From contig OY811979.1 in the NCBI GenBank assembly GCA_963681505.1, forward strand, positions 9,709,215-9,773,214: a stretch of DNA of 64,000 bases. The letters are read 5' to 3'. Below the pieces are notes generated by a model, which was not told the origin of the DNA, ran no database searches, and worked only from the letters and a program-made list of their open reading frames with translations. Positions 11,041 to 29,297 of the stretch are shown here, one piece after another. The DNA comes from Eunapius fragilis. Taxonomy: Eukaryota; Porifera; Demospongiae; Spongillida; Spongillidae. Position 1 is the stretch's first letter, and each line of letters begins with the position of its first letter. The position numbers were made by a program, and so were the translations under genes.

Positions 11041-11222
11041 AAGAAAATTATTCCGCACCACCGTTTCGCAATGAGACGCACTACTGACTGCGCATGCGTG
11101 TCACGTCTCACGTGATTGTCTTGGTAATGAGGCGCGGTCACCGCGGTGGTCGGTTAACTAGGTTTAAGTACCTTAAACTGTATTTAATTTGTGATTCTGA
11201 AACTGACGCGGTAGCGTTAATA

Positions 11223-11245
11223 CAGAGATCTATATATGATCTCTG
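11223..11245. mobile_element. 23-bp palindromic micro-insertion, 7-bp target duplication
   Basis: The palindrome has ends CAGAGAT and ATCTCTG around an AT-rich core. It is flanked by GTTAATA on both sides (11216-11222 and 11246-11252). Two similar insertions occur at 21821-21842 and 28727-28750. Confidence 0.7.
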
Positions 11246-11319
11246 GTTAATATCGCTATCTACCTCTATTATGAAAAGGGTGATTTCTGATACCTGTGCA
11301 TTAAATCCTATTGACATAC

Positions 11320-20631: not shown

Positions 20632-21235
20632 CAATGAGTCCAGCAAGCCAGCTCGTTGCATCCTCATCGATAGGAGGGTCTGGAATGCGTCCACCACCTG
20701 GTCCACCTTGACCCTTTCAATTATTGAATAGGTCAAACAGAAGGTTCCTGTACGACCAATCCCATCGCTTAGAATAGTGAAGTTCAATTGAAACCATTGT
20801 TGATTGCAACACTCACATTCCCATGTCAGTACTCATCCTCATGTGGCATTGTTCTAACACAAAAAGATACTTGTTAATTGGTAATCGAATGTACTCTCCA
20901 AAGCAAAAACACACTTTCTACACACACTTTCGAGACAGCTACATGTAATGTATGCATACAAAAATACCCTGTCACTTCCACCCTCACACTTTCCACCTGA
21001 ACACTTCCATCCCCACATCTCATCTCAACAAAAGATCACGCACGTGCAATGGACTGTGATTGGCCCATTTTCCAGACTTCCTTTATATGCGCTGAAGCAA
21101 ATCAACAATTCATCTAGTGTTCTCCAGGGCTAAACGATTTGACCACATCAAGTAGTGGAACTGAGTGACCATCCTTTTGTCTTGGGGCTGGGATGAAGGA
21201 TACATTATTAAAGAACGAAGGCCATTGAATGGGAG
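20632..21235 (-). CDS. Protein tyrosine phosphatase catalytic exons, partial
   Basis: Classical PTPs remove phosphate from tyrosine through a Cys in HCxxGxGR[ST]G. Three minus-strand exons fit. The first (about 21235-21136) gives KRMVTQFHYLMWSN, matching the QFHYxxWP motif. The second (21091-21044) ends NGPITVHC plus a split codon. The third (20767-20632) continues as DGIGRTGTFCLTYSIIERV then FQTLLSMRMQRAGLLDSL. The second and third join in phase as HCTDGIGRTG, so the active-site Cys is present across the intron. The domain resembles receptor-type PTPs. The first-to-second junction does not keep phase, so an exon may be missing. The long-inverted-end transposon begins just upstream at 21237. 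Confidence 0.75.
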
Positions 21236-21663
21236 TTTTATGACATAATCACATTTTGCCAGATAATCGCCTCAATTTCGATGGCAGCTTGGATTGGGAA
21301 GTCGAGAATTCGAACGATTGCGTCAAATTGGTTCAATTATTGGTTTTGTCAAGTTTAAATACTTTTTAAAATCGAAAATTTAATATTTAGGTATGGAACC
21401 GAAGTGTGTCCGGAATGGAATCGGGCTTTCTAATAACTACGAAGCCACGCCTATATCCCGGTTGTCGTTCTATAGCTGCATATTTACGGCGGGTTCCGGG
21501 CTAGCTAGCGCTCCGCAAGACTACACGCGAGTGAGAACTATAGAGCCTGAATTATTCTTCATCTAGTTACAGACACGCATGTCTGCGGCACCCACATTTC
21601 GTATGGGTGAGCTTGGCCAATGAACTTTACCTTCCCTCGGCCTCATATAAACTTAGAGCAGAG

Positions 21664-21679
21664 ACGCGCGCGCACGCAC

Positions 21680-21742
<63 letters not shown>

Positions 21743-21754
21743 GCACGCATACAC
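21664..21754. repeat. CA microsatellite in left TIR
   Basis: A CA/CG run at the same position as the repeats at 26065-26158, 44428-44475 and 48588-48681 in the other flank copies. Confidence 0.9.
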
Positions 21755-21820
21755 ACACATGCAAGCAGACGCACGCACGTACTCCAACTGGCGTGGATCT
21801 TTATGTGTCGTGAATACGAC

Positions 21821-21842
21821 CAGAGATAATATATTATCTCTG
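21821..21842. mobile_element. 22-bp palindromic micro-insertion, 7-bp target duplication
   Basis: CAGAGAT, an AT-rich core and ATCTCTG, flanked by ATACGAC on both sides (21814-21820 and 21843-21849). The matching positions in the other three flank copies (near 26020, 44530 and 48560) lack the insert and carry a single target sequence, so the unoccupied site is visible. Confidence 0.8.
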
Positions 21843-22659
21843 ATACGACTAACAAACACCGATCGAACCGCGGCTTCTATTTAGCAAACGCGCGTATTAG
21901 GATAGAGCCGGCGAATACCTATACAACGTAATAACTCTTCATGAATACAGATTTCAGTTGTTAGGTAAAGCTTAATTTATTACCGTTAGCGCACGACACA
22001 CAGTAAACAGGCACATCCCTTCAGCTTATGTAATGATAGCGATACCATTATTTGAGATGTCGAAGTAATTAACCGTCGGTTAGCAGACAGTATATGTGGC
22101 CTCTATAAATTTTAGTAAGGATACGCTTAGAAAGCTAAGACAGCAAGATATTAATGCATATACTCGTTACCCTCATTCGATCGGACATATAGTATATATA
22201 TTTCGTATTATGACTTTTATATATTTGCCTAGCTTGTTTTAAGTACATCATTAACAGTAGCAAAGGATATGTCATATGCAAAAGGTACTTTCCACCCCTT
22301 GTTGTTATATATCTATAGTGACGTACACAGGTATCATGCACCACTATTAGAATAAAAGAGGGTGCATAGTAAATGAAGCATGCAGACGAGTCGCAAGATA
22401 TTGCTTTGAATGTGCAGAGTGTGGCGTTTTAATTTCGTGGAAGCGCATGAAAGAAAGAAGGGGACGGCGTGACAAGTTTCGCAAACGATCCAGAAAGCAA
22501 GAAGTCTTATAATCGCCCGGTGCCTTCAATCTTTCGCAAGTTACTATCTAGGAGTCTGTGGTAGAACAGAATCTAGTGGTCACTTAACACAATAAAGGTA
22601 GGTATGTTGCGCTCCCACACACTGCTGCATACATTTTTAAAATGAGTGGAACAATGTAT

Positions 22660-22920
22660 GAGGTTGAGGCAGCGAAAATGGACATGTTATAAAAGTTTCC
22701 TGGAAGGAGCATCAAGTCCACGGGTGCAATAATAATGTACGCGTAATTAATAATTCAGAACCCATAACTCCATGATGGACAGACTAATTTCCAGTGCGTA
22801 AAAAAGAATTTGTAGAGGATATAGGTGTCTCTTTGAATATGAAATAATTTGAAAGCTTGAAATAATATATGCTATAGGTCCCTTTTCGCTGCCCTCGACC
22901 CCATTATAAAGTTTAATATA
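22660..22920. repeat. Dispersed repeat, copy 1
   Basis: It shares blocks GGTTGAGGCAGC, GGAAGGAGCATCAA, CAGACTAATTTTCAGTGCGT (one change) and a Tyr/Ser-coding-like stretch with 52545-52760. Family unknown. The following 22921-23311 is AT-rich with nothing supported. Confidence 0.65.
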
Positions 22921-23311
22921 GTAATTACATGAAATCTTGTAATCTATGCCTGTCAGTGATCCTCGTTTGGGGGTGAGTGTGTATGCATAATTATCCAACT
23001 TTCAACCCTTAATATCAGCAACGTTACTACACAGAACCATGTACAAACACACATGACAATGCACACGCAACATGCCTTGAAACCTGACCGGCTGTAAGAG
23101 GTCATTAAATAAATTTAAAAAAAAGAATTGATTGCTTAAAATTTTAACAAACGATTGAAGCGGTTGTTCAGCTAAAGAGAACCGGTTTAGGCGACTGTTT
23201 AATTCTCTCGATCAGTTAACCGGAGCTCAGGCACAACAGGTTTCAAGCCTTGTATGCGACCTACTGCCTTAGAAAGTATATTGTGATAGTCACATTTATT
23301 CTTCTTTCATA

Positions 23312-24115
23312 CAAGTAAATAAAAACATTCTCTCTGAGAAAATTGGTGGGATATAGGTTTTTCAGGCAAATAGTATACTGGTGTAAAAAGCAAGGAAACA
23401 AGTTTCATCAGACGGGAAAATGTAATAGTCCTATATTTAGCACACTTCGACTAAGGCATATGCTGTTTCTGTGCTAAATATAGGACTATTACATTTTCCC
23501 GTCTGATGAAACTTGTTTCCTTGCTTTTTACACCAGTATACTATTTGCCTGAAAAACCTATATCCCACCAATTTTCTCAGAGAGAATGTTTTTATTTACT
23601 TGTTTCCTTTATTTTTCTAACACCCAAATCACTGTTGCATCCCCCTTTCATTTAACCGATTTAATTCAATCCAGACGTATTGTGAAAATTTTCTAGGTAC
23701 CTTTGCTTAATTAGAATTGGTAAGACCGTATATAGGCTTTTAGGCGTTTTTGTATCAAAGCGAGTCCTCCAGCAAATTCTAAAGCTATTGGTGCAATTTT
23801 CATTGCTTAAAAGTGTTCCTGTCCCGAGTTATGAGTTCTGAAGAAGCAGAAGAAGAAGAAGAAGAAGCAGACGACCCGCCCATTATTTTTGGAAGGGGAA
23901 CGAGGACGGCAGTATTTTTCGTTCTCGACAACCACGCGGTTCTACGACGTGAAACAAAAACGAAACTACTCAGTTTTGACTTCTAGATCGATTGCCGCAA
24001 CAAGTTAGACGATCCGATCGTCGGGAACGAAGCTACGGTAGGGTCGAGGGATTTTAATTAAATTCATAGTCGGGGTCAAAACCTATATGGAAGTCTCTAG
24101 CGAGACTTCCGATAA
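23312..24115 (+). mobile_element. Hairpin element, copy 2
   Basis: The inverted repeat at 23312-23602 has arms of about 133 bp that match perfectly around a 25-bp loop. The tail ends in the 9-bp stem hairpin at 24089-24110 and GATAA. Compared with copy 1 the outer 45 bp and several blocks are conserved, but about 20-bp blocks within the arms are wholly different, in both arms together. The tail keeps GCGAGTCCTCCAGC and CACGCGGTTC. Confidence 0.8.
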
Positions 24116-24179
24116 AATGGCAAAAGAGATTTACATTAAAACTCATAGTTCATCTTATTATTAATAAACATGAAATACA

Positions 24180-24400
24180 TTCATGTAATACACACAACAA
24201 GGTCATACAATGGCCCTGGAGTTGGCTCTGATCAGGGTCAAGTTCAATCTACCATAGATCTGGTTTGTTGTGATAGACTTAGGCTGTCCTAGTCAATTGG
24301 CTAGTCTACCTGCAAGTCTAGAGAGTCTATGTTGAGCTTCAGGTTCCCAGCTCTACCACCAAAGGGATGCAAACCCAACCTAACATTCCACATTTTGCAT
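24180..24400 (-). pseudogene. LINE 3' tail remnant
   Basis: A minus-strand frame reads NQIYGRLNLTLIRANSRAI, matching the C-terminal motif of the LINE protein at 45016-46115 (DIYGRLNFHLVRANANAIL). The same remnant recurs at 46160-46370 in the second long-TIR element, so it was present before those elements diverged. Confidence 0.65.
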
Positions 24401-25296
24401 CATATATTTAATGCTGTTTCAAAACCGAAAATGAGATAGCTTGTGGCATAATATTATTCTACATGTATGTTATGTGCAAATTAATCTTAACAACTGATTC
24501 GTAATCCCGTGCACGTGTTTGCTTCAAAGGTACAGTATTTAGTGTATCTGATCAACCACGTTAACGTTCTATAACCTAGTATTGTATAAGCCTTCAAAAA
24601 GTGGTCATTGTCCACACTGTTCGGACATGAAAAATTTGATTTCCCACAGCATGTATAAAATATGCATTCTACTGGGTGTCTATGGAGAGCTGGGTACCAT
24701 AACGCATACTAATGAACAATGGGTTAAATCCCTGCATGGCCACTGGTTAGGGTTGTGGTGGTCTAATGGATGGGTTTGAAATGACAAAAATGAATCCTAT
24801 GTCACTCCCTTCTCACCCCCTCTCTCACTCTCTTTCCCCTCTCTCCCCCTCTCTCCCTTTCTCTCTTTCTCCCTCTCTCCCTCCCTCTCTCCCTCCCTCC
24901 CTCCATCTCACCCTCCCTCCATCTCACCCTCCCTCCCTCTCTCTCTCTTTCCACCCTCTCTCTCGTGTCTCTCTCTATCATGACTCAGGTCTATCCCAGC
25001 TTGTTACCTTTTGGCACTGGTTTGATGCCAGTGCTATTCCTTGATAGGAATGCCTATTGTTTTGTAGCCCTTACCACTGAGAAACAACCCATTGGTAATA
25101 TATGTGTATAAGGTATAGTACTCACCAATCTGATATTACTCTCACAAACATCATCTGGCTTGTCTGCATAAAATAAAACTGAAGCTAATACAAAATAATC
25201 TTGCTTGGCCAGTATATTGGCCAACCATGTATTTGTATAATACATGCATTGCAATAGTGTATCAAGTGTTTTGATAATCTATTCATCCACCAAGAC
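24401..25296. repeat. Shared inner segment with CT-rich simple repeat
   Basis: 24580-25050 matches 46540-47410 in the second element, including CAATGGGTTAAATCCCTGCA, and ends in CCCTCTCT-type pyrimidine repeats at 24800-24985. Ser/Pro/Leu frames across the repeat are artefacts. Confidence 0.7.
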
Positions 25297-26577
25297 CCCT
25301 AGCTAGTTACTAGTAACTTATACAAAAGATTGAAGGCACCGGGCCTTTCTGTAAGACCTCTTGCTTTCTGGATCGCCGTTCTTGTCACGCAGCCCCTTCT
25401 TTCTTTCATGCGCTTCCACGAAATTTAAATGCCACGCTCTGCACATTCAAAGCAATATCTTGCGAGTCGTCTGCTTTCATTTACTATGCACCCTCTTTTG
25501 TTATGTTTATTATAATAGTGGTGCATGATACCTGTGTACGTCACTATAGATATATAACAACAAGGGGTGCATAGTACCTTTTGCATATAACATATCCATT
25601 GCTACCATTAAATACTTAAACCAATGCAAGCTAGACAAATAAGTAAAGGTCATAGTACGAAATATAATTTATGTCCGATAGAATGCGGGTAACGAGTCTT
25701 GCTGTCTTAGCTTTCTAAGCGTATGCAGTTTCACTAATGATATATTCGCCGTTGGGAAAATTTATAGAGGCCACATATACTGTCTGCTAACCGTTAATTT
25801 CACGACGTCGACATCTCGGTATCGCTATCATTACATAAGCAGAAGGGATGTGCCTGTTTACTGTGTGTCGTGCGCTAACGGTAATGAATCAAGCTTTACC
25901 TAACAACTGAAATCTGTATTCATGAAGAGTTATTACGTTGTATAGGTATTCGCTGGCTCTATCCTAATACGCGCATTTGCTAAATAGAAGCTGCGGGCCG
26001 ATCGGAATCCTGTTAATTGTATTCACGACACTTAAAGATCCACGCGCAGTTGGAGTGTGTACGTGCGTGCGTCTGCGTGCATGTGTGTGTGTGTGTGCGT
26101 GTGTGTGTGTGTGTGGGTGTAGGTGTGGGTGTGCATGCGTGCGCGCGCGCGCGTCTGTGCTATAAGTTGTTTATGAGGCCGGAGGAAGGTCAAGTTCATT
26201 GGCCAAGCTCGCCCATACGAAATGTGGGGCCGCCGACATGCTAAAGGAAGAATAATTCAGGCTGTATAGTTTCTCACCCGTATAGTCTCGCGGTGCTAGA
26301 ACCCACAGTAAATATGCAGCTAGGCTATAGAACGGCAACCGGGATATAGGTGTGGCTTCGTAGTTATTAGAAAGCCCGATTCCACTCCGGACACACTTCG
26401 ATTCCATACCAAAATTTCAAATGTTCGATTAAAAAAATATTTATATTTGACAAAACCAATAATTGAACCAATTTTACGCAATCGTTCGAGTCAAATTCTC
26501 CACTTTCCAATCCAAGCTGCCATCGAAATTGAGGCGAATATCTGTCAAATTGTGATTATGTCATTAAACGAAAGATC
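25297..26577. repeat. Right TIR of long-TIR element, copy 1
   Basis: Inverse of 21237-22655 with many small differences, including a GT/GC microsatellite at 26065-26158. Its outer end continues past the left TIR's truncated end to GGCGGAAAGGCACACGGACCC at about 26660. Confidence 0.8.
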
Positions 26578-28654: not shown

Positions 28655-28726
28655 CTGCAACAACTATTAGAAGCTTAGCAACATCTGGCCCCGTGCAAAA
28701 CATCTAGGTTGGTTGGTTATTCATGT

Positions 28727-28750
28727 CAGAGATCATATATATGATCTCTG
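28727..28750. mobile_element. 24-bp palindromic micro-insertion, 7-bp target duplication
   Basis: CAGAGAT ends and ATCTCTG around CATATATATG, flanked by TTCATGT on both sides (28720-28726 and 28751-28757). Confidence 0.72.
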
Positions 28751-29297
28751 TTCATGTCAACTATGTAAGTGGTGTAGGCTCACAGTACATATACAAATTT
28801 TAGGACGTATGTTTGGGAGTGTGGGAAATAAAAAGTACGTCTGTCAGTGTTTATGTGCACAATTAACAATTGATGTTTACATGTTGTAATGCATTTCTCA
28901 AATGACAACTGGCTCATATCATGGTTAATAATTCTACCCTACCCACGATTTAAGGGGCTAACAACAAATTCTAAACGACAGATACCTTGTGCTGTGTAGG
29001 AGTCAAATGGTCCCCTGGGAATCTACTGTTCGTCCAGATCTATGTGTGATGTGTATATTTTGTGTGGTGTGTGTGTTGTGTAACGACAGATCAACGTGTT
29101 TTTGTGTGAAGTGGCATGGTACAGGGATAAATAAACCTCACCCCGTAAAATATTTTGCCGAGGTATATTCAGAATGCATCTGTACCATTTTCCCCATTTC
29201 TTCTCAAACCCAAATCACCTCACACTCATGTACACGTATGTGCAAGTGATCTTGTTAGTTGCAGAGTGAGCATGTACAATACCTTTCCCCCTTACAG

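Follow-up and report, generated by a model that had tools for sequence, protein, structure and literature searches.

Short palindromes between 7-bp duplications in the sponge Eunapius fragilis as probable excision footprints of P-superfamily transposons

Excision by P-type transposases and a palindrome inserted in a host repeat

Fly P transposase makes a staggered cut that leaves 17-nt 3' extensions (PMC7776569, PMC2895639). According to Chan et al. 2010 (PMC2895639), the footprints of Drosophila melanogaster P elements contain, between two target duplications, no more than 17 nt from either transposon end joined by microhomology or filler, and the breaks are described as repaired by theta-dependent end joining with microhomology inside the 17-nt tails and templated insertions. 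The putative footprints reported here have the same anatomy, with junctions within 17-nt tails, but the duplications are 7 bp instead of 8 bp, and while the fly footprints came from a laboratory assay, those in the sponge contigs are natural and occupy over a thousand places. P-type transposases are also found outside flies, as here and in zebrafish Pdre2/THAP9; the work on the latter also cites the 17-nt staggered cut of the Drosophila transposase and gives, unlike the sponge elements, 8-bp duplications and 13-bp inverted repeats CATACCTGTCAAC (PMC10983969). Galileo, a Drosophila member of the P superfamily, shares the 7-bp duplication and has a palindromic target preference, GTANTAC, but is described with long inverted repeats (PMC4168063), in contrast to approximately 28-36 bp in the parents here. 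Natural scars read from assembled genomes have a counterpart in DNA-transposon excisions between two rice species, where most of 94 putative events involve deleted flanks or filler (PMC4423477), whereas the sponge scars belong to one superfamily, have a defined 17-nt end and usually keep both duplications. A natural catalogue of P footprints was not found in a literature search of titles and abstract openings in which subscription journals were thinly covered.

The window analysed here is a stretch of 64,000 nucleotides of contig OY811979.1 (positions 9,709,215 to 9,773,214) and part of the 219-Mb assembly of 24 contigs that was searched. Direct reading places a 22-bp palindrome, CAGAGATAATATATTATCTCTG, at 21821-21842 between two copies of ATACGAC with a 7/7 flank match, as the original prediction had it. 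That prediction also grouped three inserts (at 11223, 21821 and 28727) by common 7-bp ends and exact 7-bp duplications, and this holds for all three, which are 22-24 bp long, begin with CAGAGAT and end with ATCTCTG. The features are as follows, none with an assigned strand.

11216..11222, left copy of the target-site duplication, GTTAATA (sequence, 7/7 match)
11223..11245, probable P-element excision footprint of 23 bp, CAGAGATC subfamily, made of 8 nt from one end and 17 nt from the other with 2-nt microhomology (sequence; decomposed by the join model)
11246..11252, right copy of the target-site duplication, GTTAATA (sequence, 7/7 match)
21814..21820, left copy of the target-site duplication, ATACGAC (sequence, 7/7 match)
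21821..21842, very probable P-element excision footprint of 22 bp, 14 nt from each CAGAGATAATATATAG... end with ATATAT in common (sequence; decomposed by the join model; identical copy at C9:7223263; 19 of 20 other repeat copies without insert)
21843..21849, right copy of the target-site duplication, ATACGAC (sequence, 7/7 match)
21859..22046, arm of a repeated host element adjoining the insertion, with its partner arm at 25818-26005 and 43 genome-wide matches to that end (repeat comparison)
28720..28726, left copy of the target-site duplication, TTCATGT (sequence, 7/7 match)
28727..28750, probable P-element excision footprint of 24 bp, two CAGAGATC ends overlapping in ATATAT (sequence; decomposed by the join model)
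28751..28757, right copy of the target-site duplication, TTCATGT (sequence, 7/7 match)

The host repeat offers unoccupied versions of the site. Elsewhere in the window, two flank copies have GTGAATACGATTAAC and a third has GTGAATACAATTAAC; the original prediction that all three carry the unbroken target stands insofar as they are uninterrupted, but they are one or two bases off ATACGAC. Twenty of the 43 genome matches to the host-repeat end were read for presence of the insert, by eye since MAFFT misplaced both duplication copies at the insertion. The insert was absent in 19 of these 20 copies, 13 of them reading ATACGAT and the rest showing small changes at or beside the target, which upholds a real insertion at 21821; the remaining copy (C9:7223263) carries the identical palindrome. 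Because the occupied copies have ATACGAC on both sides, the T-to-C change at target base 7 either predates the insertion or belongs to that lineage. Neither a CAGAGAT parent end nor a CATAGAT palindrome was found inside the window, and a window scan allowing three mismatches (6 palindrome matches vs a shuffled mean of 3.4) is uninformative at such laxity.

Two larger repeat structures were observed in the window. Positions 21235-26437, with partner arms near 48.8 kb, form a foldback-like repeat with several long inverted arms, and several of the 43 genome matches to one of its ends lie as close inverted pairs. From 30403 to at least 35561 tandem units follow one another every 167 bp or so, some spacings being 166 or 173; a 300-nt reference has 46 in-register copies there, of which 16 are additional to those listed.

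Palindromes and parent transposons across the genome

The genome-wide scan that had been proposed for CAGAGAT palindromes revealed a clear excess: exact matches to CAGAGAT-N(0-20)-ATCTCTG occur at 1190 places, including events copied within larger repeats, compared with 25 for the reversed control pattern. Among the matches listed, the palindromes measure 14-41 bp. The flanks of 44 places were inspected (the earliest entries of contig 1, the three of the window, a copy of one of these and four picked for special junctions), which form 35 event clusters, some places being copies of one event in larger repeats. The best duplication per cluster was 7/7 in 21, 6/7 in seven and 5/7 or fewer in seven, one of the low-scoring clusters (L041) having an exact 8-bp duplication and two loci (L042 and L043) being probably falsely merged via a CA repeat. 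Counted by distinct 12-bp flanks, 23/40 show 7/7 and 9/40 show 6/7, against 1.25% and 0.33% of 200,000 random positions, the former value probably inflated by simple repeats. Both duplications are thus typically retained around CAGAGAT palindromes, and the 21 distinct exact duplications, taken on both strands, show a preference for GT(T/A)(A/T)(A/T)AC.

A blind scan of 320,350 bases looked for any insert 14-45 bp long that has 7-bp terminal inverted repeats and lies between exact repeats, with low-complexity flanks excluded. With 7-bp flanking repeats it returned 19 places, several of them copies of one event, namely 18 CAGAGAT cases (including all three window sites) and one CATAGAT case, and at repeat lengths of 5, 6, 8, 9 and 10 bp it returned 10, 9, 2, 0 and 1 places. 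The DNA included 20 ten-kb loci picked for CAGAGAT palindromes and ten loci picked for P transposase or P ends; the duplications and the CATAGAT case lay outside the selection criteria.

Full transposons with the same termini, the other object of the proposed search, are also present. Parent ends of the form CAGAGAT-N(6-26)-GGANNGGAA gave 325+317 matches genome-wide vs 26+30 in the control, CAGAGATAATATATAGAGGGATTGGAA being the commonest form among the matches listed, and many listed ends form inverted pairs approximately 0.4-8 kb apart. Ten parents were read in nine stretches, three of 4.9-5.0 kb and seven of 0.84-2.04 kb, with inverted repeats of approximately 28-36 bp; the duplication is 7/7 in each of the ten and in no case extends to an 8-bp match. 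In exact-match counts, which overlook diverged copies of palindromes and elements alike, palindrome places outnumber intact CAGAGAT elements by about 4:1 (1190 vs 642 ends, or some 320 elements if the 56 control matches are left in). One stretch (C1:2535900-2538170) contains a CAGAGAT P element nested in another, each with its own 7-bp duplication.

The three 4.9-5.0 kb parents coincide with matches to PF21787, the RNase-H-like domain of P-type transposases, and in L033, the sole parent scanned, PF21787 and PF21789 were both confirmed. Genome-wide there are 57 PF21787 matches, and seven further P-type elements read at seven of them have CATAGAT... or CAAGGA... ends and 7-bp duplications in all seven cases; like the parents, they have terminal inverted repeats starting with CA. 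The transposase of one sister-family element (L025) matches PDB 6p5a, the Drosophila P transposase, at 8.8e-07, while a phmmer search of the L033 exon against PDB gave no match. No THAP domain was detected, either by Pfam in the eight reading frames supplied or by a rough C2CH motif search over the six frames of ten elements, introns being unmodelled. The target of these P-superfamily parents is 7 bp long and of the GT..AC type, Galileo-like and unlike the 8-bp target of classical P. The 7-bp duplication, found in 10/10 parents and 7/7 other P-type elements, rules out classical P but not the P superfamily, because 7 bp is usual in Galileo. Near the right end of both L033 (3879-4859, + strand) and L025 (4259-5233, - strand) lies a homologous ORF with 29% identity over 221 aligned positions, oriented along the transposase exons in L033 and against them in L025; the L033 copy has no Pfam match.

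Retained end length and the joining of ends

The retained ends stop at 17 nt, as predicted from P-element staggered cutting. Counted genome-wide, 269 matches retain 16 or more bases of the CAGAGATN end, 179 retain 17 or more and 6 retain 18 or more, with a gap of up to 22 allowed in the 16-base pattern and up to 20 in the other two. The pattern searches as a whole limit product length to 34-45 bp and leave longer remnants uncounted. Part of the drop between 16 and 17 is artefactual: the 17-base pattern misses products ending in ...TATAGATCTCTG, whose base 17 also belongs to the other end. In 99 examined matches with at least 16 bases, the next base was the parent's A (base 17) in 96, while the parent's G (base 18) appeared in three; since that A is often attributable to the other end too, the distinction between 16 and 17 depends mainly on the 34-bp products that join 17 and 17 bases. 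At 50 places among the CAGAGAT matches listed, no end exceeds 17 bases and 21 reach exactly 17.

The sequences of the same 50 products are largely those expected from two such ends. Joining two 17-nt tails at microhomology yields 25 of them, the modelled joins, which correspond to the commonest products, being 22 and 24 bp via ATATAT, 23 bp via terminal GA (C subfamily) and 26 bp via terminal A, and joins without filler explain 41 in total. The overhang model reproduces the observed sequences of 22, 23, 24, 26 and 34 bp, the last being a join of complete tails that occurs at no fewer than three places among the matches listed, with duplications of 7/7, 6/7 and 7/7. At C2:15585366-15585404 (L075:21-59), telomere-like TTAGGGTTAGG filler lies between P ends inside a 7/7 duplication of CTAGCAT.

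These observations suggest the following sequence of events for the window palindrome. A P-superfamily transposon with CAGAGATAATATATAGAGGGATTGGAA... ends would have inserted at ATACGAC beside the arm of another repeat, duplicating 7 bp, and would later have been excised by a transposase, the presumed cutting protein. A staggered break of presumed polarity, with one strand opened at the element's terminus and its partner 17 nt further in, would leave both chromosome ends with 17-nt 3' tails CAGAGATNATATATAGA. The two tails would have the same sequence and be non-complementary to each other except in the self-complementary ATATAT and the terminal GA or A; as they are identical, pairing would be possible only where they are self-complementary. 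Annealing at these stretches, or filling and joining of the complete tails (17+17), would give a short palindrome between two 7-bp duplications as the end product. By analogy with fly P breaks we infer polymerase-theta-type end joining as the repair; a search for family-A polymerases (PF00476) gave two weak exon matches, one barely above the cut-off, in which theta is indistinguishable from its relatives.

An excess of palindromes is seen for two other P end types as well. CATAGAT-N(0-20)-ATCTATG occurs at 753 places vs 18 in the control across the whole genome, and at the one site with flanks read (L012:3021-3044) the duplication is 7/7. Among the CATAGAT matches listed, a 17-base word of a putative parent, CATAGATATTAGACTGG, is joined to four different right-hand pieces, and in two sequences, present at three places, the match ends at base 17 and the following base departs from the parent, one of the two being judged against a guessed end. 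Eighteen bases are matched in 2/50 listed products, base 18 being also the first base of the other end, from which it may derive. The six supplied ends leave 30 of the 50 listed products without a full explanation; other parents are therefore likely and the 753 places are perhaps not all scars. The pattern CAAGGAT-N(0-22)-ATCCTTG was found at 152 places vs 12 in the control genome-wide, many of them listed without visible letters. One product, visible at two places (e.g. C1:5021495-5021522), retains 20-21 bases of the L028 end and thereby speaks against 17 as a general limit. Also returned by this search was a set of 35-bp CAAGGATTAC... palindromes that differ in their middles, for which no parent was identified.

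In CAGAGAT, CATAGAT and CAAGGAT ends the GGATNGG box begins at base 19, 20 and 23, respectively, while cuts fall after 17 bases in the first two families and the single CAAGGAT product retains 20-21. A genome holding one to two thousand P-excision scars, with the inner cut measured from this internal box and not at a fixed 17 nt, is conceivable, but the ruler idea is weak, being drawn from one junction type, and we consider it doubtful.

Competing explanations and significance

The original prediction had left two options for the palindromes, a minimal mobile unit of 22-24 bp or the remains of an excised transposon with P-type staggered cuts. Many short sites (1190) together with long parents of the same termini and 7-bp duplications favour the latter, as do the P-type transposase domains in three parents and the stop at 17 nt, and we regard it as very probable that the window palindrome is a P-element excision footprint. 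Counted against this reading are the seven of 35 clusters with 5/7 or fewer flank matches and the six matches with at least 18 end bases, as well as the incompletely explained CATAGAT products (30/50), the two CATAGAT products matching 18 bases, the 20-21-base CAAGGAT product, the missing PDB match of the L033 exon, the failure to detect a THAP domain and the weakness of the two family-A polymerase matches. No site among those read was occupied by a complete parent in one copy while a second copy had a footprint.

An internal deletion of the parent by aborted gap repair, in place of excision followed by end joining, would likewise leave both ends and both duplications, and at fly P breaks end joining after unfinished repair synthesis has been described (PMC2895639). 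Such a process should produce variable end lengths, yet the stop at 17 nt is sharp, and for the palindromes we judge it very improbable; it may, however, lie behind the shorter parents of 0.84-2.04 kb. Slightly less credible again is a self-contained micro-element of 22-24 bp moved in trans by P transposase. Short sites do exceed intact parents several-fold and many have clean 7-bp duplications, but a fixed-sequence inserting unit, as in a MITE, does not fit lengths of 14-41 bp among the matches listed, sequences that are mostly filler-free joins of two parent ends (41 of 50 listed) stopping at 17 nt, or the occurrence of 17+17 and filler products, and the box GGGATTGGAA common to the listed parents sits outside the retained 17 nt. 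Chance palindromes or simple-repeat slippage in AT-rich DNA, to which the AT-rich cores and the near-random three-mismatch window matches might point, are refuted for practical purposes by the exact-pattern excess (1190 vs 25), the host-repeat copies without insert and the exact 7-bp duplications at 23/40 distinct sites vs 1.25% of random draws.

Excision footprints of P elements thus remain the preferred reading. The excision mechanism is already known from fly genetics, while a natural archive at genome scale seems to be new. One assembled genome of a non-model eukaryote would then show which targets P-type transposons choose, where they are cut and how the breaks are repaired, in a record that spans over a thousand places, and short palindromes with duplications, which are easily overlooked, would constitute a record of transposon loss.
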